Assembly (NCBI GenBank): GCA_030622635.1
Contig: JAUXFX010000014.1
Location: 1 to 32,895 of the forward strand
DNA from: Bacteroidota bacterium
GTDB taxonomy: Bacteria; Bacteroidota; Bacteroidia; Bacteroidales; JADFUO01
Length of the DNA: 32,895 bases
Direction of reading: 5' to 3'
The position numbers were made by a program, and so were the translations under genes. The notes beneath the pieces are model-generated. The model was given only the letters and a program-made list of their open reading frames with translations, did no database searches and was not told the DNA's origin. This document shows, one piece after another, positions 6,928 through 31,073 of this stretch. Position 1 is the first letter of the stretch, and each line of letters starts with the position of its first letter.

Positions 6928-8301
6928 TTATTCATTTTCAATTATTACCCAATGTCCTGTTTTATCTGAACCCACTCTCTTTATGATTTGTTTATCTTTT
7001 AACTTTTTTAAATTATTTTCTATTGATGTTGTACTAACTCCAATTAGTTTAGCCATTTCCGGTATTGTTACATCTGGATTATTCTGAATAGCATTAAAAA
7101 CATTCTGCTCATTTACACCCAACTTTACACCCAACTTTACACCCAACTTTACACCCAATTTGTTTCTTCGAAAAACAATCGTAAACATACCTTTGGTTTT
7201 AAATACAGGTTCCGGCAACCCGGCTTCACGAATATCTGTTTTTATCCGCCTGATTCCCGAGCCTACTTGTTCAACCATATCCATTCTTTGGAATAAACCA
7301 AAAACCAGGGGATTTCTGCTCGAACTTTTTGTTCCGAATTCTTCAGGTAAAATGGCACTTACTAAACCACCGGGATTGGTTATTTCTACCTGGTCATCAA
7401 ACAATTCAATCATCGTTCTGCCACCTTTGTCATAATAATCGCGATGAGACAGGGCATTGATAATGGATTCTTTAAGAGCGGTTTCAGGAATTTCCCATAC
7501 TTCTTTTCTGGGTCCGCTTCCTTCAATAATATATCGCACACTCAATTTAGTTTTCAGCCACCGCAAGGCATCGCGGTATTGTTGCATTAAGGGTCCTCCC
7601 CATACTTTATCGTCAATGATTTGGACTTTGTCGGTGCCTTCAAAAGCAACACAGCGGATTACGGCTTTTTCAAAATAGCTTTCAGGTTGTTTGCCGAAAA
7701 ACAATACACTACCGTTCTTAAAAACATTGACATCATCTAACAATTGCAAATTCCTGATGATTTGCCAATCTTCTGTAGCTGGAGAAAAGCCAGCAATTAT
7801 CCTAAATTCCTTAAAAAACTCTTTATCAAAATCACTCTCAAAAGAAAAGTTGTTGCAACTGCCCTCATCAAAATAGATACGACCCGATTGCTGAAAAAAA
7901 TCACGCATTTGCTCTACCGAAATTATTTTCTGTGAATTTGCCCCCTGTCTGACATAAATAGCTCCCGACAAAGTATATGGCTTTTGTAAGCCCGAAGGCA
8001 CTTCAATTACTCCAATTTGTTTTCCGCCCACTTCAACAAAATAAAAGGGACAATGCAAGTTTGGATTAATTTGATGAAGCGAATTTTGAATTGCCGACCG
8101 TTTTTTATTGTTGATTTCAATACCGCGAATCTCATTATTATCATCAACACCGAGAAGCACAACTCCTCCGGCAGCATTGGCAAAGGCACAAACTTCTTCG
8201 GTAAGCTCTTTTACCTTTGCAGGAACACGAACTTTGAACTCGGCATTGTAGCCTTCACCGGATTGCGCAATACTCTTTATGTCAGTTTCTGTTAGTTGCA
8301 T
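6928..8301 (-). CDS. ATP-binding AlbA_2/Schlafen-like protein (COG2865 type) embedded in the RM operon
   Basis: 457 aa: GEGYNAEFKVRVPAKVKELTEEVCAFANAAGGVVLLGVDDN, ALKESIINALSHRDYYDKGGRTMIELFDDQVEITNPGGL, C-terminal winged helix. Confidence 0.88.
   Translation of the reverse strand: MQLTETDIKSIAQSGEGYNAEFKVRVPAKVKELTEEVCAFANAAGGVVLLGVDDNNEIRGIEINNKKRSAIQNSLHQINPNLHCPFYFVEVGGKQIGVIEVPSGLQKPYTLSGAIYVRQGANSQKIISVEQMRDFFQQSGRIYFDEGSCNNFSFESDFDKEFFKEFRIIAGFSPATEDWQIIRNLQLLDDVNVFKNGSVLFFGKQPESYFEKAVIRCVAFEGTDKVQIIDDKVWGGPLMQQYRDALRWLKTKLSVRYIIEGSGPRKEVWEIPETALKESIINALSHRDYYDKGGRTMIELFDDQVEITNPGGLVSAILPEEFGTKSSSRNPLVFGLFQRMDMVEQVGSGIRRIKTDIREAGLPEPVFKTKGMFTIVFRRNKLGVKLGVKLGVKLGVNEQNVFNAIQNNPDVTIPEMAKLIGVSTTSIENNLKKLKDKQIIKRVGSDKTGHWVIIENE
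7112..7159. repeat. 12-bp tandem repeat, 4 copies, encoding KLGV repeats in the AlbA-type protein
   Basis: TTTACACCCAAC x3 followed by TTTACACCCAAT. Confidence 0.95.
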
Positions 8302-9526
8302 ATTTTGCTTTACTTTCTGCTGCTAAATTTAATAAATTTTCCTCATTGCTCTGATATAAATTCAATTTTTCAACATTTATCATCCCCGTCATTAGCCGTG
8401 GCAATAATATATCTCGGGCTTCTTTTAGGTTTTGGTTTTGGATATGTAAATTTTCAATTTCTTTATCAATTGGAATAACTATGTGATTGAATTTTTGCAT
8501 AGTATTTTCATTACCTTCAATTAATTCAATTCTTAACATATCATTTTTAGTTACTGAATTAAATATAGCACCACCACCCATTAAATTATCTTCAAAAAAT
8601 ATTTGTTTTAATTGATTAAATAAAAACCCATTCCATCCATTTTTATGTCTAACTGATGCCAAGCCTCTTCCTAAAATAATTTTGTTGATGGCAATATTTA
8701 GTCTTCCTACAGGTGCTCTTACGCTAAATAAAACATCTCCTTTTTCTGCTACTCGATTACCATTTATACTCCACATTGTATTTGTCGGAAACCTTTCACC
8801 ATAATCTTTTACCCCCTGATGGAATGGTAATCCTTTTCGTTCTATATTATAAAATTCGGATTTTGGACTTTGTCCCATTGTTAGATTACAAGCATCCCCC
8901 AACTTCACCTTCCGCCACCCTTCCGGCAACCCAGTTTTCTCATCAATAGTCAATTTTACGCCATCAATTTTAAATCGCACAAACCACTCCTCATAAGTTT
9001 TTTGTGCCATCTCCTCCAACAGCTTAATGCGTTTTAGGTTGTTTTCTATCAGGTTGTCGTAGGCGGAGAGTATGGTGGCTATTTTTAATCTTATTTCCGA
9101 TTTTTCAGGTAAGAATAATTTTGTTTTTCTTAAATCGGGTCCACTTATTGCATCATAAACAGCTCCATATGAGCGAGCTAAAAATGCTTCACGATTTACC
9201 TTTATTGTGTAATAAATAAATCGTTGTTCATCTGTATTTTTTGCATTAATTGCTGCTAAACCTCTACCAATACAACATTTGACTTTAGTAATGTTTAATT
9301 CTCCAACAGGTGCACGAACAGTAAAAAGCACACTGTCTTTTTCAGCTTCTTTAGTTATTTTGTTTGTATATTGTCTAATTGTCGGAAATAATTCTCTAAA
9401 TTCTGTCTTTCCTTGAAAAAAAGGCAGTCCAGAACCTTTCTCATTATAATATTTGGAAGGTGGTGATTGCCCCATAATAACATCAGCAACTTCTTCTAAT
9501 CTATATTCTTTCCACCCTTCCATCAT
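8282..9526 (-). CDS. hsdS: Type I restriction-modification specificity subunit S
   Basis: 414 aa with two TRDs (MGQSPPSKYYN...GLPFFQG and MGQSPKSEFYN...GLPFHQG) and conserved helices (IATILSAYDNLIENNLKRIKLLEEMAQKTYEEWFV). Confidence 0.95.
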   Translation of the reverse strand: MMEGWKEYRLEEVADVIMGQSPPSKYYNEKGSGLPFFQGKTEFRELFPTIRQYTNKITKEAEKDSVLFTVRAPVGELNITKVKCCIGRGLAAINAKNTDEQRFIYYTIKVNREAFLARSYGAVYDAISGPDLRKTKLFLPEKSEIRLKIATILSAYDNLIENNLKRIKLLEEMAQKTYEEWFVRFKIDGVKLTIDEKTGLPEGWRKVKLGDACNLTMGQSPKSEFYNIERKGLPFHQGVKDYGERFPTNTMWSINGNRVAEKGDVLFSVRAPVGRLNIAINKIILGRGLASVRHKNGWNGFLFNQLKQIFFEDNLMGGGAIFNSVTKNDMLRIELIEGNENTMQKFNHIVIPIDKEIENLHIQNQNLKEARDILLPRLMTGMINVEKLNLYQSNEENLLNLAAESKAKYATNRN

Positions 9527-10191
9527 AATTCCACGCTTTGAATTTTGTTAATATTTCTATTTAAAATACTAATAATAAATCGCTTTACAATATTAGCTTC
9601 ATCGCTTTTGCTTGTGGCAATAAAGAGTGTTAAAGAAGCTAATTCTTCGTGGTCATAATCGTCAAGTAGTTCCAAACCTGTTGAAAAGATATTCAGTATT
9701 TCGTTTTCTTTGGTTTCGTTTCTTGCTTCAATGGCACGGCTAAGTATCTGTATTCCTGTTTTAAGATGTAGTACTTCTTGCTGTTTTTCGTGCAATCGCT
9801 TTTCGTTTATGGCATAACCTTTTACAAGGAAGTCTTTTAGGCGTTGTGTTGCCCATTGGCGGAATTGTGTTCCTCTTTTTGAATTAACTCGATAACCAAC
9901 TGATATAATAGCATCTAAATTATAAAATTTGATATTTCGTTTTACATTTCGTTTTACATTTCGTTTGCCCTCTTTTTGAACTACCGAGAAATACTCGGTA
10001 GTTGAGTTTTCGTCTAATTCACCTTCTTTGAAAATATTTTTAAAATGTAATCCTATGGTGTCGCTGTCTTTATCAAATAACTCTGCCATCTGTTTTTGAC
10101 TAAGCCAAACAGTTTGCTCATCAAATTTTACTTCAACAATAGTTTGGCTGTCTTTAGTTTGATATATTTCTATTTTGTTTTGTTCTTCCAT
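9523..10191 (-). CDS. RhuM-family protein, shortened, with apparent loss of the Fic/DOC core
   Basis: IEIYQTKDSQTIVEVKFDEQTVWLSQKQMAELFDKDSDTIGLHFKNIFKEGEL...TEYFSVVQKEG...FYNLDAIISVGYRVNSKRGTQFRQWATQRLKDFLVKGYAINEKRL is RhuM-like. It then passes from LELLDDYDH directly to ELASLTLFIATSKSDEANIVKRFIISILNRN. Confidence 0.85.
   Translation of the reverse strand: MEEQNKIEIYQTKDSQTIVEVKFDEQTVWLSQKQMAELFDKDSDTIGLHFKNIFKEGELDENSTTEYFSVVQKEGKRNVKRNVKRNIKFYNLDAIISVGYRVNSKRGTQFRQWATQRLKDFLVKGYAINEKRLHEKQQEVLHLKTGIQILSRAIEARNETKENEILNIFSTGLELLDDYDHEELASLTLFIATSKSDEANIVKRFIISILNRNINKIQSVEL
9934..9969. repeat. 12-bp tandem repeat, 3 copies, encoding KRNV repeats in the RhuM-like protein
   Basis: ATTTCGTTTTAC x2 followed by ATTTCGTTTGCC. 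Confidence 0.9.
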
Positions 10192-12167
10192 TACAATTTT
10201 ACGCTCTGTATTTGATTCATTAAATCGTTGGCTTCGGTATTCAGTTCTGTCAGTTCGCTGTGTATCTCTTTCATTCGGGCTTTGTAGTCAAAATCTTCAT
10301 CAATTTGTATGCTGTAACCAACATATCGCCCGGGTGTAAGTGAATAGTCATTTTCTATTATTTCTTCAAAGTCAACTATTTTACAAAGTCCTTCAACATC
10401 CGCATATTTATTTTCGGGGAAATATTCTAAAAGTTTTTTCCAATCGCTTATCCTTTGTTTAATCTCTTTCAAATATTCGGCAATCTGCATTTGATATTCT
10501 TTTAAAGGTTTGTTGAGTTTGTTCAGCTTGTCTTTAAAAGGCTTCATTTTGGCGGTTACTGTTTTCTTATCTATTTTTTGAGACGAACGGCTGTTCGTCT
10601 GTACGAGTGCTGCAATTTCTTTTTCAAGTTCTTTGATAAAATCCAGTGCTTTTGGTGTAGGTTTTTCAAAAGCAGTTAGAATTTCTTCGGCATTTTCGGG
10701 ATTATCAAAGTTGCTAAAATTTACCGTTTCCGAAATAATTAAATCGTCAATTTTTAATTCGACAGATAATTGCTTTAATTCTTTTGCAAGGATTTTATAA
10801 TGGTCGTTCACCATTTCAAACTGTTCGTTTAAAGCATTTTTATGCGCTTTATCAGCTATTGTAACGGCTTCGGTATTTCCACGGTAAAGCTGAACAATAG
10901 TTGTCAGGTTTAATAATTGCCCTTCTGAAAAATCGTTGATAGTTGAGTTCACAACACGATAGGTATTTCGTGCATCAAGCATCAAAATCTTATTCTTGTT
11001 TGTCTGTGGTTTGCCTTTATCAAAAAACCATAAATGACAAGGCAAAGAACGGGTATAAAAGAAGTTGTTGCCCACCGAAACAATCACATCTACATTTTCG
11101 GTTTTAATAAGTTGTTGGCGTATCAGCTTTTCAGAATTACCTGCATCGGTAGCAGAACTTGCCATAACAAAACCGGTACGCCCTTTTTCGTTCAGATAAG
11201 AATTAAAATACTGTATCCACATATAATTGCCATTGTCGGCTTTTGGCACGCCAAAAGGTAAGCGAGGGTCTTCTTTTACATAATCTTTATTCTTGTCAAT
11301 TTTCTTTACATTAAAAGGCGGATTAGCCATTACAAAATCGCATTTGCCAATCAAATTATGCGGGTCGCTGTAAAAAGTATTGTCTTCTAAAATCTTCCCT
11401 TCAATTCCGTGTATAGCAAGGTTCATTTTTGCCAAACGAACATTGTTTGATTTAAGTTCAGTTCCGTAAACAGTTATAGCCTCGTTAACCTGTTTGTTGG
11501 TATGGTTTTTAACAAAATAGCCGGTTTGCACAAACATACCACCCGAACCGCAAGCCGGGTCGTGTATAATTCCGTGCTCGGGTTCAATAAAATTTACAAT
11601 GAGTTGAACCAATGAAGGCGGTGTGAAGAATTCGCCCCCTTCCTGAGCACCGGCACCACTCATTGAAAATTTCATTAGAAAAAATTCATAAATCCTGCCA
11701 AAAACATCACCGGAAATATTTTTTACAGCATCTTTATTAAAAACCCGAATAAGCGAACGCAATAAATCGGCATCAAATTCCTGGTAGTTTTTTGGCAGAA
11801 TTCCTTCAAGGTCTTTGTAATCAGCCTCAATCAATCGCATCGCATTATTTACGGCTTCTGCAATATCATTGCTTTCGGGCAAGTTTGCCAAATATTCGTA
11901 TTGCGATTCAGCTTGTAAATACATTGCACCCGCAGCCAGCAAATCGTTTTTTGACAGCTTTCTTTTTTTGCCTGTTCTTGGGTTTATTGGTAAATTATCC
12001 TCTATCTGGTTTTTAGCTTCTTCAAATCTGTTTTGTGCGTAACGCAAAAGGATTAAACCGAGAACAGGATCTTTATATTCGGCAGCCGTTAATTTTGAGT
12101 TGGCACGCAATTCATCTGCTGCTCCCCACAATTCCGTCTCTAATTTCTTTATTACTTCGTTTGTCAT
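10191..12167 (-). CDS. hsdM: Type I restriction-modification methyltransferase subunit M (ORF opens at 12242; MTNEVIKKLETELWG at 12167 is the likelier start)
   Basis: GRIYEFFLMKFSMSGAGAQEGGEFFTPPSLVQLIVNFIEPEHGIIHDPACGSGGMFVQTG and DFVMANPPFNVK (NPPF) motifs. Confidence 0.96.
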   Translation of the reverse strand: MTNEVIKKLETELWGAADELRANSKLTAAEYKDPVLGLILLRYAQNRFEEAKNQIEDNLPINPRTGKKRKLSKNDLLAAGAMYLQAESQYEYLANLPESNDIAEAVNNAMRLIEADYKDLEGILPKNYQEFDADLLRSLIRVFNKDAVKNISGDVFGRIYEFFLMKFSMSGAGAQEGGEFFTPPSLVQLIVNFIEPEHGIIHDPACGSGGMFVQTGYFVKNHTNKQVNEAITVYGTELKSNNVRLAKMNLAIHGIEGKILEDNTFYSDPHNLIGKCDFVMANPPFNVKKIDKNKDYVKEDPRLPFGVPKADNGNYMWIQYFNSYLNEKGRTGFVMASSATDAGNSEKLIRQQLIKTENVDVIVSVGNNFFYTRSLPCHLWFFDKGKPQTNKNKILMLDARNTYRVVNSTINDFSEGQLLNLTTIVQLYRGNTEAVTIADKAHKNALNEQFEMVNDHYKILAKELKQLSVELKIDDLIISETVNFSNFDNPENAEEILTAFEKPTPKALDFIKELEKEIAALVQTNSRSSQKIDKKTVTAKMKPFKDKLNKLNKPLKEYQMQIAEYLKEIKQRISDWKKLLEYFPENKYADVEGLCKIVDFEEIIENDYSLTPGRYVGYSIQIDEDFDYKARMKEIHSELTELNTEANDLMNQIQSVKL

Positions 12168-12474
12168 ATTATGTTTAAAGTGTTTTGATTTTATTATTTT
12201 GGTTTGCTTTATATAGATTTTATATTTCTGACGTTCAAGCAAAAATATTGAATTTGTTTGAATTTGTTTTTTGTCATTATAAACGACATATTTGAAGGTA
12301 CTCTTTACAAATTAGCGCCAGTTGGGGATTTCTTTGAGAAGCATGTCTTTAATAAAAGTTAAAGTTTAATTATTTGCTAAAGTATAAAATAATTATGAAA
12401 AGGAAGAAAAAAATGTACTAATATCCAAAATCATTTCAATGACACAAATTAAAGAAGATTTTTAACAGCACATA

Positions 12475-12561
12475 ATCGAGGCGGCTGGTGGTCAAATGAC
12501 AGTGCGCCTCTCACACCACTCCCGAAAGTTTTCGGTATACGGGTCTCGTATACGGCGGTTC
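12475..12561 (-). ncRNA. Probable group II intron 3'-end remnant (domains V/VI), interrupted by a TCCCGAAAGTTTTCGG palindrome
   Basis: Minus strand GAACCGCC-GTATACG-AGACC-CGTATAC-...-GTGGTGTGAGAGGCG...CGCCTCGATT resembles group II intron DV/DVI; no RT ORF. Confidence 0.45.
12520..12535. repeat. Palindromic repeat TCCCGAAAGTTTTCGG
   Basis: Inverse-orientation relative of 24031-24048; a half copy occurs near 27119. Confidence 0.7.
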
Positions 12562-12654
12562 ATCAGACAAAAGAAATTTCGAGTTGTGTCTCATTTGGCA
12601 CTGACCGGTGAGATTTCTGAAATTGCTCTGAAAAAGAAAAATAACCTCTCTTTT

Positions 12655-13938
12655 TCAGTCTTTCAAACACCTTACAGAAAAGCCAACTGATTTTGGGAAA
12701 TTCATAAAAAATGCTTTTTCAAACAAATAATTCAAGGAAACATATTTAGCTTCAATCGCTCCATATCCTGTTGATGCCCAAAAATTTCCGCTGCTTCTTA
12801 TATCTTTAAAGGTTGAATCAATATAACGATAACCGCCTGGTAAGGCTGTAAAACCGCTCCAATTATTTGCACCCGTATTAGGAGGATTCCATAGAACTGT
12901 TCCTGTTTCTTTCATTTTGCCACCGGCTATATCAGAACCTCCTAAAAAGTTGGATAATGCTGTCCATTCATTAAAAGATGGAAGATGCCATCCATCGGGA
13001 CAAATACCTTGATTTCCTCCTGAATATGTGTATTGCATCATTTCGTCCCATTGATATAGCCCGCCGTATGTTGTACAAGTTGCAGGATTGTTGTCATAGC
13101 AATACTTTTCAATTGTATCATTATTAGTTTGATTAAAATCCCCATTTATCATTATTCCGACATTCAAATTTTCGTCTAACCAGCATTGATTTCCAATCAC
13201 TATTGTATGATAAACCTGACCTTCATAATTAACCGATGTTATATTATCGCATGGGTCAACAGGGTCTTCTGTTGCAAACGACCAAATATTACCCTCAGTT
13301 TCATTGCCTTTATTATCTTTTGCAACAATTTTCCAATAATAAATCACACCATTTTCCAATGTGACTGGGTTAAATATTTGTACGTTCGTATCCTGAACAA
13401 TAACAGGGGGTTCAATTGTTTTACCTAAATAAATATCAAAAAGTAAAGAATCACCTTCCGGATCGGTACAAAACCATGAAAGTGTCGTTTCAACAGGTAC
13501 GTTAACATCACCATTGGCAGGTGTAGGATCATATGGTGGACCCGGAGGTTTGTTACCTTGGGCAATTACAACAACTTCTCTTGAAGTAGTACCGGTCCAT
13601 CCGGAATTATCTTTCACTCTTAATTGGATATTGTAAGTTGCAGCAGAATCATATTTATGCGAAGCTATTTTTGTTGTTGTGTATTCTGTCCAGATATTAT
13701 TGTTTCGCCAATCCCAGCTTACTTGTAATTCTGACGGCGGGTCTTCGTTGTCAAAGCTTTCCGAAGCATCAACAATAAATATGGTTAATGTATCACCGGA
13801 TGTTGGACTTACAGTAAATGTTGCAGTTGGTGCATATTCATTTTCATCAATATCTTTCTGACAGCCAATAAATATAATTAAAAAAGCTACAAATAATACT
13901 ATCAGTACTATTGTACTTTTACTTTTAAATAAAACCAT
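12655..13938 (-). CDS. Lipoprotein with PKD-like and fibronectin III-like domains and a FISUMP (Fibrobacter succinogenes major paralogous) domain
   Basis: Lipobox-like IFIGCQ after a TM segment; DTLTIFIVDASESFDNEDPP...WDWRNN (PKD-like); VPVETTLSWFCTDPEGDSLLFDIYLG; CWLDENLNVG...YGGLYQWDEMMQY...GICPDGWHLPSFNEW...GGYR (FISUMP). Likely start MVLFKSK at 13938, not the ORF start at 14028. Confidence 0.88.
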   Translation of the reverse strand: MVLFKSKSTIVLIVLFVAFLIIFIGCQKDIDENEYAPTATFTVSPTSGDTLTIFIVDASESFDNEDPPSELQVSWDWRNNNIWTEYTTTKIASHKYDSAATYNIQLRVKDNSGWTGTTSREVVVIAQGNKPPGPPYDPTPANGDVNVPVETTLSWFCTDPEGDSLLFDIYLGKTIEPPVIVQDTNVQIFNPVTLENGVIYYWKIVAKDNKGNETEGNIWSFATEDPVDPCDNITSVNYEGQVYHTIVIGNQCWLDENLNVGIMINGDFNQTNNDTIEKYCYDNNPATCTTYGGLYQWDEMMQYTYSGGNQGICPDGWHLPSFNEWTALSNFLGGSDIAGGKMKETGTVLWNPPNTGANNWSGFTALPGGYRYIDSTFKDIRSSGNFWASTGYGAIEAKYVSLNYLFEKAFFMNFPKSVGFSVRCLKD

Positions 13939-27286: not shown

Positions 27287-28672
27287 TCACTTATGCACCT
27301 TCCTGATAAATTCCTCCACTTCAGGTATTCCGCCCTGATAAACAAGGTAACCGTTATAAGGTTCCCTGTCGGTAATTTCATCATTAATTGGGGTTAACAT
27401 CATCTTTTTTACTTCCTTAGGGTTGTCGGTTTGACCCAGCACCCAGCCCAATTTGATAAATGCAACTTCGGGCAGCATGTTTCCGGCAGGTATTATTCCT
27501 TTAGCCATCATATCCCTTCCTGTGTCATAAACAAACATGTGTACATATCCCCAGATTGTTTGTAAAGTCATGAACATGTGAACACCTTTTGCATGAGCCC
27601 GTTCAATGGCCGGATATAATTCTTTGTTTACATGACCAAGTCCTGTTCCGACAATAATTATACCCTTGTATCCCGCATCAACCAAAGAATCAAGCATGTC
27701 GGGTTTCATGCCGGGATAATAATACAACATAGTTACTTTATCACTAAAATATGGCAGAATTTTAACATTCCTGTCTTTACGACGATGATGATAATTGGTT
27801 TTTATCGGAGTAATTTCTTTTCTGCTGACCATTGCAATAGGAATATCGCCAATAGTTCTAAAAGTTGAACGGTAAGAAGAATGCATTTTCCTCACTCTTG
27901 TGCCTTTATGCAACAAACCATATTCATCTGATGTAGGACCGAACATACAAACCATAACTTCTGCAATATCAGAATGACCTGCTGCGTGCATGGCATGCAT
28001 AAGATTTAATGCAGCATCAGAGCTTGGGCGGTCGGATGAACGTTGTGAACCTACCAAAACAATTGGTACAGGAGAATTTTGCACCATAAATGTAAGTACT
28101 GCTCCTGTGTGATGTAAGGTATCTGTTCCATGTCCTATTACAATACCTTCAATTCCATTTTCAATTTCTTTTCCTATAGCTTTTGCCAAAGAAATGTATT
28201 GTTTAGGTCCCATGTTTTCACTAAAAACAGCGAAAACTTTTTCTGTTTCAAGGTTACAAATATCTGCCAGCTCCGGAACAGCTCCGTATAATTCACCAGG
28301 CGAGAATGCAGGAATAACAGCCCCTGTCCTGTAATCCAAACGGGAAGCAATTGTTCCGCCCGTACCGAATAATTTAACTTTTGGCAAACCTTTTGTAAAC
28401 GGAAATTCTTTTTCCGGAATTTTGTAACTGGCTTTTTTATAGCCGGTTTCTTTCATTGTTTTTATTGTTGCAATATCAATTCCGACATTGTAACCGGTAG
28501 GAATTTTCATCACAATATGTTTGTCATCATCATTTTCAGCGCGTGGAAGAATTGTTCCGTTAAAAGTTCCACGTGTGGTTTCAATAGTTGCCTGCCCCCA
28601 AACCCTGGTATTATATTTTTTTAAAGTTTTAAGTGCAGCTCCTTTATATCCCTGAAAAAAATCTTCGCTCAT
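27287..28672 (-). CDS. gatD: Archaeal-type Glu-tRNA(Gln) amidotransferase subunit D
   Basis: N-terminal GatD domain (VWGQATIETTRGTFNGTILPRAENDDDKHIVMKIPTGYNVGIDI) plus asparaginase-like core (KVKLFGTGGTIASRLDYRTGAVIPAFSPGEL, GIVIGHGTDTLHHTGAVLTFM, VLVGSQRSSDRPSSDAALNL). Confidence 0.93.
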   Translation of the reverse strand: MSEDFFQGYKGAALKTLKKYNTRVWGQATIETTRGTFNGTILPRAENDDDKHIVMKIPTGYNVGIDIATIKTMKETGYKKASYKIPEKEFPFTKGLPKVKLFGTGGTIASRLDYRTGAVIPAFSPGELYGAVPELADICNLETEKVFAVFSENMGPKQYISLAKAIGKEIENGIEGIVIGHGTDTLHHTGAVLTFMVQNSPVPIVLVGSQRSSDRPSSDAALNLMHAMHAAGHSDIAEVMVCMFGPTSDEYGLLHKGTRVRKMHSSYRSTFRTIGDIPIAMVSRKEITPIKTNYHHRRKDRNVKILPYFSDKVTMLYYYPGMKPDMLDSLVDAGYKGIIIVGTGLGHVNKELYPAIERAHAKGVHMFMTLQTIWGYVHMFVYDTGRDMMAKGIIPAGNMLPEVAFIKLGWVLGQTDNPKEVKKMMLTPINDEITDREPYNGYLVYQGGIPEVEEFIRKVHK

Positions 28673-28703
28673 TATGGTATTATTTTAATGTATATAATAT
28701 GTT

Positions 28704-28738
28704 GGTTATATGTTATTTGTTATATGTTATTAGTTATA
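28704..28738. repeat. Heptamer tandem repeat GTTATAT (5 units)
   Basis: GTTATAT GTTATTT GTTATAT GTTATTA GTTATAT. Confidence 0.8.
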
Positions 28739-28899
28739 TACTATTATCCTGTAAAACTTTGCTAAAAAAACAAAGTTATTTAGCAAATCCACAATTAGTA
28801 AGCGATTGCTGAATAATATGTAACTTGCCATTTATGGCGCTATGTTATGAGTTATATGGTGTTGACCAGGCTTGAATCATTAATGAGTCCAGTTTAAAA

Positions 28900-28979
28900 A
28901 GCCATCGGATGACTAATCTTCAAAAAATAGTCAGAAAAAGAAACTGTGTATCGATTTATTAAAAAGTCATCCGATGGCT
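28900..28979. repeat. Perfect 15-bp inverted repeat with 50-nt loop between gatE and gatD
   Basis: AGCCATCGGATGACT (28900-28914) and AGTCATCCGATGGCT (28965-28979); weaker outer arms TTGAATCATTAATGAG / CTCATTAATTCAA. Confidence 0.85.
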
Positions 28980-29033
28980 ATCATTATAAATATTTGCTTT
29001 TTAGTCCAATCTCATTAATTCAACACAATTAAC

Positions 29034-29054
29034 ATATAACCTATAACATTTAAC
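29034..29054. repeat. Inverted heptamers ATATAAC CTATAAC ATTTAAC
   Basis: Reverse-complement orientation of the 28704-28738 array. Confidence 0.7.
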
Positions 29055-29057
29055 TAC

Positions 29058-31073
29058 TTACTTCGTATTTTCAATTTTTTTGGATAATTTCTTTAAGTCA
29101 ATATTACCGATTGCAATTTCATTTAATTCACCCATTATCCAGTTTGTTTCATTTTTCTTATTATCAGCATATTTTATTTCATCAAACTTTTCTTTTAAAA
29201 ATGGAATATGAGAAAAAATACTTTCTATTGATACTTTTTTGAAATTTATGCTTGAAAGAACAGAATCAAAATCCATTTTCGGGTTTTCATAAACAACAGG
29301 AAGCATTTTTTCTGCAAGTTTAAGATTTAGCTTGTTTTTCAGAAGATATCTAAACATAGCATAAATTATTTTATAATTAAACTCCTCTGCAGGTAAATAA
29401 TGCCCTTCAACAAACTTTAATTTATGTCCGAAAAACGTTCCTGTAAATTTTGGATTTATATTAAGTTCGTTGACAATTCTTTCAATTAGCAAGAAAAGAT
29501 TCTTTTTAAAAATATAGGTGTAAGTATCTTCAGGCACATTCCATTTTTTTAATTGAAAATACCTGTCAATAACTTCTGTTGGAAGATTCTTTTTTAAATT
29601 TTCAATATGTTCGTTTTCAAGAGGTATTGGCGGTGAATCGGTGTCAGGGTACATACGGTCAGCACCCGGCAGTACTCTTTCAAAAATTGTTGTACCATCT
29701 TCAAATGATTTCCGTGTTTCGTTAGGTACGCATTCAAAAGCCATTTGGCATCTTTCCTCAATAGTTTCAAGGGCAGTTTCCATATCTTCTTCCGGACCCC
29801 AAAAAATTATCTGTGCATCATCTTTACCTGAGTTTAATAAAGTTCTTATTTTTTTAAAATCATTTTCTAAAATAACCGGTTCAAAAGCTTCGGAATGTGT
29901 CATATTCGGTTTTTCAAGACAGGCAATAACTTTAAGTCTTTCGCTGATTTCATTGGCAAACATTTTCCCGGGTTGAGTAAAATGAGAAAGTATTCCCTTG
30001 AATCCCGGAAAATTAACAGCAATAATTTTATACCGTTGTTTCCGGGCATTTTTGAGAGGCTCATAAGTAAATCTAAAAGAATTAAAAGATTGTGAATTCA
30101 GATGTTCGTAATTGATTTTCCAGTTTGCAGTATCAGCAATTCTTTTCTTTAAAATTTCTCTGATTTTCAACAATGCCCACTGCCTGAAACACTCGTTATG
30201 TGTAAGTTCGGGAATCCATTTAGTGTGTGCAACTCCTTTTATTTCAACACGCGTTCCACCTCTGCAACTAACATTTACATCTTCCCTTCCTGCGCCGATA
30301 CCTGTTCTAACTTTATCTGTGCTTCTGTTCAAAAAACGTATATAATCGCATGTTTCTCTGACTTCTTCGGGATTCACACAATCGGGATAAGTAACGGTTT
30401 CAATCAAAGGCATGCCAAGACGATCGGTTTTAAAAGTACGAACATGACCAATATCTGAAATTTCGCGGCATGCATCTTCTTCTAAACTCAATTGAATAAG
30501 CCGTATTTTTTTGTTTTTCAACGAAATTTCGCCTTCAACACCAATAATAGTAGTACGCTGGAAGCCGGTAGGAATGCTTCCGTCAAGATATTGTTTTCGG
30601 GTAATATGAATCTCTCCTACAATATTTAATTTTGAAAGCAAAGAAATTTCAATAGCAATGTCAAGTGCTTCTTTATTAACAGGAAAAGGTGGAGTATCAT
30701 CAACCTCATAAGTACATGTGGTTTCATTTTTCAAGCGGTAAATTATTTCTTTTTTGGTTTTAAATTCCATCAATGCAGTACCGTCATATTCTCCTAATTC
30801 GCTGAGTGTAGGACGCATGTGTCTGACAACTTCCGCATCATAATCCTCGCTTTTATTGTAAACTCCAGCAGGGCAATGGCAAAAAAGCTTCTCCTTTGTT
30901 AATAATTGTTGATGAACTTCCAATCCCGACTTGAAACCGATTCTATTATAAGTTTCCTGTGTGGCTTCCTTACGCGAAACATAACCAACTGCTTTTTTGG
31001 TTTTTTCATAATTTTGCTTCGGGCTAAACTTATTTAAATTTTTAGAGTTACTACTATTCTTTTGATTTGCCAT
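29058..31073 (-). CDS. gatE: Archaeal-type Glu-tRNA(Gln) amidotransferase subunit E, with GAD insertion domain
   Basis: GFKSGLEVHQQLLTKEKLFCHCPAG, TTCTYEVDDTPPFPVNKEALDIAIEISLL, EIHITRKQYLDGSIPTGFQRTTII, IRLIQLSLEEDACREI, GAGREDVNVSCRGGTRVEIKG; central GFKGILSHFTQPGKMFANEISERLKV...QIIFWG (GAD-like). Confidence 0.94.
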   Translation of the reverse strand: MANQKNSSNSKNLNKFSPKQNYEKTKKAVGYVSRKEATQETYNRIGFKSGLEVHQQLLTKEKLFCHCPAGVYNKSEDYDAEVVRHMRPTLSELGEYDGTALMEFKTKKEIIYRLKNETTCTYEVDDTPPFPVNKEALDIAIEISLLSKLNIVGEIHITRKQYLDGSIPTGFQRTTIIGVEGEISLKNKKIRLIQLSLEEDACREISDIGHVRTFKTDRLGMPLIETVTYPDCVNPEEVRETCDYIRFLNRSTDKVRTGIGAGREDVNVSCRGGTRVEIKGVAHTKWIPELTHNECFRQWALLKIREILKKRIADTANWKINYEHLNSQSFNSFRFTYEPLKNARKQRYKIIAVNFPGFKGILSHFTQPGKMFANEISERLKVIACLEKPNMTHSEAFEPVILENDFKKIRTLLNSGKDDAQIIFWGPEEDMETALETIEERCQMAFECVPNETRKSFEDGTTIFERVLPGADRMYPDTDSPPIPLENEHIENLKKNLPTEVIDRYFQLKKWNVPEDTYTYIFKKNLFLLIERIVNELNINPKFTGTFFGHKLKFVEGHYLPAEEFNYKIIYAMFRYLLKNKLNLKLAEKMLPVVYENPKMDFDSVLSSINFKKVSIESIFSHIPFLKEKFDEIKYADNKKNETNWIMGELNEIAIGNIDLKKLSKKIENTK

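Follow-up and report, generated by a model that had tools for sequence, protein, structure and literature searches.

Why does a bacterium carry an enzyme that the literature assigns to archaea? The question is raised by two minus-strand genes on a contig of a Bacteroidota bacterium (the whole stretch of DNA analysed, 32,895 nucleotides, is called the window here), which a preliminary description had read as the two halves of the tRNA-dependent amidotransferase GatDE. According to a 2022 review, archaea are today the only organisms with GatDE (PMC9499178), a similar archaeal-only distribution is given elsewhere (PMC8007984), and no report of a bacterial GatDE was found in the literature searched. 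The archaeal enzyme recognises the A1:U72 pair and the D-loop of tRNA-Gln, and its co-evolution with archaeal tRNA-Gln has been offered as the reason why archaea never took up GlnRS (PMC9499178).

The two genes and their products

Both genes are complete open reading frames (Table 1), and their assignment to GatD and GatE was borne out by profile searches, structures and trees. The GatD protein scored 498 and 496 bits against the NCBIfam GatD equivalogs (cut-offs 310 and 324), with 1zq1_A and 2d6f_A as its best PDB matches (E ~1e-114), while GatE scored 472 and 416 bits against the GatE equivalogs (cut-offs 456 and 320), stayed far under all NCBIfam GatB cut-offs and had 2d6f_C and 1zq1_C as its best PDB matches. 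These entries are the archaeal GatDE of Pyrococcus abyssi (1zq1) and that of Methanothermobacter thermautotrophicus with tRNA-Gln (2d6f), with which the bacterial pair has both subunits and the domain order in common, as well as the GAD-type insertion, the GatD_N domain, the catalytic motifs and the fold.

Table 1. Features of the gatE-gatD locus, in positions of the window
Feature	Position	Strand	Description
gatE	29058..31073	-	671 aa, complete ORF, first gene of the gatE-gatD pair
GatE N-terminal extension	30951..31073	-	residues 1-41; from alignments; kept in Bacteroidia-type GatE
GAD-type insertion of GatE	29709..30116	-	~residues 320-455; aligns to archaeal GatE, missing in GatB
GatE C-terminal helical/YqeY-like tail	29070..29483	-	residues 531-668; divergent, 14.9 bits vs Pfam cut-off 27
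gatE-gatD intergenic gap	28673..29057	-	385 bp, nested inverted repeats throughout
gatD	27287..28672	-	461 aa, complete ORF, second gene of the gatE-gatD pair
GatD_N domain	28463..28585	-	GatD residues 30-70; Pfam PF18195, 41.8 bits vs cut-off 25.7
Asparaginase-like glutaminase core of GatD	27398..28381	-	T107, T183, D184, K262 invariant

In GatD, the Asparaginase N and C domains of Pfam were detected alongside GatD_N, as the GatD-specific N-terminal domain on an asparaginase-like core had been described, and the catalytic residues (two Thr, Asp and Lys) line up with those of archaeal GatD. The catalytic core is shared with type I asparaginase; unlike that enzyme, however, the protein of the window carries GatD_N and clusters with archaeal GatD, apart from the asparaginases of its relatives.

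The GAD insertion ascribed to GatE was upheld in substance. A segment of about 135 residues (320-455) is shared with archaeal GatE and absent from GatB, but the Pfam GAD model, which matches 37 of the 56 GatE family members at E<=1, misses the protein of the window. The motifs GLEVH, DGS..GFQRT, LEED and PLIE are conserved, and the three structures most similar to an AlphaFold model of the protein (56 related sequences as input, pLDDT 86) are all archaeal GatE, with 1zq1_C reaching a TM score of 0.81 (target length). The GatB of bacterial GatCAB is homologous to the GatE core, but it stands separate in the tree with full support. What sets the bacterial GatE apart from its archaeal counterparts is an identity of only ~32%, the divergent tail and a conserved N-terminal extension of ~38 residues, which archaeal GatE lacks in the alignments and which is modelled at high confidence from about residue 15. 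A new specificity could reside in the extension and the tail of Bacteroidia GatE.

The two genes travel together. GatD was found above the cut-off in 23 of 24 GatE genomes searched, and in the 24th a partial GatD lies where its contig ends; gatE followed by gatD was seen in 75 of 87 loci, with gatD elsewhere or off the contig in the remainder; wherever both were found, this order on one strand was kept. The gap between them is 137 bp in the closest relative and below 100 bp at most loci, against the 385 bp of the window, where outer inverted-repeat arms of 30 nt (28705-28734 and 29025-29054) enclose a perfect 15-nt pair. By its repeats, the gap resembles a short, palindromic insertion element within the operon.

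The other genes near the pair on the window contig are bacterial, and at the contig end (31689-32893) an IS4-family transposase is broken up over more than one frame (a part of 219 aa, open-ended, then one of 108 aa) and is probably degraded. Across the gene neighbourhoods compared, no recurring translation gene adjoins gatE-gatD. The sole linkage to GlnRS was observed at locus L254 (G305:C45), where gatE (11048-12961, minus strand) and GlnRS (7981-9666, plus strand) are ~1.4 kb apart.

Occurrence and descent within Bacteroidota

GatE was found in 161 of 393 sampled genomes (41%) of the order to which the window belongs, distributed over 90 of 206 genera and many families, in 7 of 295 sampled genomes of its class (above the curated cut-off), and in 30 of 396 sampled genomes of the phylum, several other Bacteroidota lineages included. 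At least 562 GatE relatives were confirmed in GTDB species genomes, and the best 80 of these all come from Bacteroidota assemblies, except for one titled "uncultured bacterium". The finding of GatDE in a bacterial genome, in spite of its archaeal assignment in the literature (PMC9499178), stands. The accompanying suggestion that this genome in particular acquired the pair horizontally is not supported, because GatE is widespread in Bacteroidota, an outcome that the preliminary description had itself named as speaking against its reading. GatDE in this phylum is neither rare nor recent.

In the GatE tree the Bacteroidia sequences form one group (support 100) and nearly all of those from other Bacteroidota classes form another (97); the archaeal GatE and the bacterial GatB sequences fall outside both. 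The GatD tree agrees with it: all bacterial GatD share one group (100), to which neither archaeal GatD nor the asparaginases belong. The archaeal side of both trees consists of two sequences only; with these two rows, GatD and GatE group with their archaeal namesakes against asparaginase and GatB, as the preliminary description had proposed. G420, a genome of another class, carries a Bacteroidia-type GatE, and the sequences of families f66 and f21 branch from within those of the window's order; transfers of GatDE inside the phylum are therefore probable. The best explanation of this pattern is that bacterial GatDE has mostly been inherited within old Bacteroidota lineages, with many losses and some transfers within the phylum, and we hold it, jointly with the auxiliary role discussed below, with a confidence somewhat above even.

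Carriage of GatDE by phages or plasmids was also considered and rejected, since the viral contigs searched held no GatE relative and the plasmid matches comprised only segments distantly similar to GatB and a single piece of archaeal GatE. On the haloarchaeal megaplasmid CP031304 of Natrinema thermotolerans (L239), a GatE-like region that lacks annotation is spread over two frames and is possibly a pseudogene.

Gln-tRNA synthesis in the carriers

The preliminary description had also raised the possibility of an altered tRNA-Gln aminoacylation route, to be checked by looking for GlnRS and GatCAB in the same genome. GlnRS is present in the window's genome (755 bits, cut-off 426) with its PPEPNGYLHIGH and IMSKRK motifs intact, as is AsnRS, while no GatB above the curated cut-off was found there. 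Both of its tRNA-Gln are of the bacterial U1-A72 type, so that the comparison of the first acceptor pair came out against the archaeal A1-U72. In all the features compared, the pair belongs to the GatDE protein family. It does not represent the archaeal GatDE pathway, since two features of that pathway, the absence of GlnRS and an A1-U72 tRNA-Gln, were looked for in this genome and not found.

The same holds beyond this genome. GlnRS occurs in all class-level carriers and in 27 of the 30 phylum-level carriers, compared with 171 of 366 phylum non-carriers (Fisher p 4e-6, uncorrected for kinship). Nineteen of the 30 have GlnRS and GatB, eight GlnRS only and three GatB only; none lacks both, and GatDE therefore never stands alone in the phylum sample. 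With an intact GlnRS, bacterial-type tRNA-Gln and no phylum-level carrier dependent on GatDE alone, the idea of an altered route is not supported. That GatDE might serve as an Asn-tRNA enzyme compensating for a missing GatCAB was likewise rejected, AsnRS being present in every genome checked. An amidotransferase beside the direct synthetases has a parallel in Bdellovibrio, Thermus and Deinococcus, which have GlnRS, AsnRS and GatCAB (PMC4206432); there, however, the enzyme is GatCAB, whereas the Bacteroidota carriers have GatDE, either by itself or as a second amidotransferase.

A relaxed GluRS that charges tRNA-Gln with Glu was considered as a general reason for the retention of GatDE. The position examined was the one aligned to R358 of Thermus thermophilus GluRS, an anticodon-reading residue. 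In the window's genome the bacterial GluRS is cut by the contig end, its N-terminal half lying on the contig and its C-terminal half beyond it, and position 358 is unreadable; its relatives mostly have Arg there, and those of genus g23 have Lys. Genus g23 (G096, G189, G015, G059, G128 and G159) shows three states: some genomes have GatCAB and lack GlnRS, another has GlnRS by itself, and others combine GlnRS and GatDE. Its GluRS has Lys at this position in the genomes with GatCAB only and in those with GlnRS and GatDE, and Arg in the genome with GlnRS only, whose GluRS is nested among those of GatDE carriers. This change, as read from the alignment and the tree, would amount to one event, a hint that fits the notion that GatDE becomes dispensable once GluRS discriminates. 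Outside g23, Arg was found in 13 of 13 readable carriers of other classes, in the three f66 carriers and in 15 of 15 readable non-carriers of the same families, so that nothing points to a relaxed GluRS in most carriers. As the position separates genomes only within g23 and is Arg throughout elsewhere, the general explanation was dropped.

In most of the genomes examined from other classes, only a few kb separate GluRS from GlnRS, and GluRS mostly stands directly upstream, in carriers and non-carriers alike (loci L255, L257, L259, L260, L262-L267, L269 and L271-L273); the same is seen in genus g23.

Possible roles of GatDE beside GlnRS

Since the carriers have GlnRS, many of the relatives together with GatCAB, Gln-tRNA does not come mainly from GatDE. 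Because the whole catalytic apparatus has been kept, the most economical reading is that of a genuine bacterial GatDE which assists GlnRS by amidating mischarged Glu-tRNA(Gln), and we regard this as slightly more probable than its negation. The asparaginase-like core of GatD would release ammonia from Gln or Asn, and GatE would hold the misacylated Glu-tRNA(Gln), activate its Glu with ATP and amidate the activated Glu to yield Gln-tRNA(Gln); the pair would thereby act as an auxiliary or repair amidotransferase, rescuing Glu-tRNA(Gln) made by GluRS. The activity, substrate and repair role are predicted here from homology and conserved residues, and several observations speak against them: the Arg at GluRS position 358 in most carriers, the U1-A72 tRNA-Gln of this genome, where archaeal GatDE is reported to read A1-U72 (PMC9499178), and the general want of translation neighbours. 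A related proposal, plausible but held with less than even confidence, is that Bacteroidota GatDE forms a distinct bacterial branch which took on a new job by means of its N-terminal extension and altered tail, either quality control of Gln decoding by U1-A72 tRNA-Gln next to GlnRS or the amidation of a different substrate.

Among the alternatives, the one that survives best is that GatDE of Bacteroidota was recruited to another substrate, such as some other misacylated tRNA or a molecule that is not a tRNA, and no longer serves tRNA-Gln. It would account for an enzyme whose task GlnRS, and in many cases GatCAB as well, already covers and which is yet under strong purifying selection, and it agrees with the Arg at position 358 in most carriers, with the absence of the archaeal A1-U72 element from tRNA-Gln, and with the new conserved extension and divergent tail of GatE. 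Against this, the catalytic motifs and overall fold of archaeal GatE and the pairing of the subunits are all retained, and no adjoining gene points to another substrate. We consider recruitment rather unlikely, but it stays a serious rival because the GluRS pattern of g23 does not generalise.

That GatDE is left over from an old transfer, expendable and only weakly selected, might be suggested by its patchy presence and many losses at the level of order, class and phylum. This is contradicted by dN/dS values of 0.03-0.13 for gatE and 0.006-0.053 for gatD in all pairs tested, by which both genes are under strong purifying selection, and by the invariance of all motifs, so that a remnant is highly improbable. 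Still less credit can be given to the reading in which Gln-tRNA is made chiefly through GatDE, with a GlnRS that has degenerated or become specialised: GatDE is indeed intact, and the specificity residue of the window genome's own GluRS cannot be read, but GlnRS scores far over its cut-off with intact motifs, it accompanies GatDE in nearly all carriers, and the tRNA-Gln are bacterial. Archaeal contamination or mis-binning, for which only the fragmentation of the assembly into 279 contigs could be adduced, has a negligible probability given the bacterial neighbours, the low identity to archaeal GatE and the occurrence of the nearest GatE and GatD (92-98% identity) in a further assembly from Bacteroidota, and a binning error is excluded because the carriers include single-contig genomes.

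The auxiliary amidotransferase thus favored belongs to an enzyme family that is old and common in Bacteroidota and sits beside GlnRS instead of replacing it. Its presence there breaks the archaea-only statement of the 2022 review, and since GlnRS and GatDE can share a cell, the co-evolution account of GlnRS exclusion from archaea becomes testable (PMC9499178). The close relatives in genus g23, with GatCAB only, with GlnRS only, and with GlnRS and GatDE, form a natural set for following the swapping of Gln-tRNA pathways, and they allow one to ask what purpose an amidotransferase has when Gln-tRNA synthesis does not need it.
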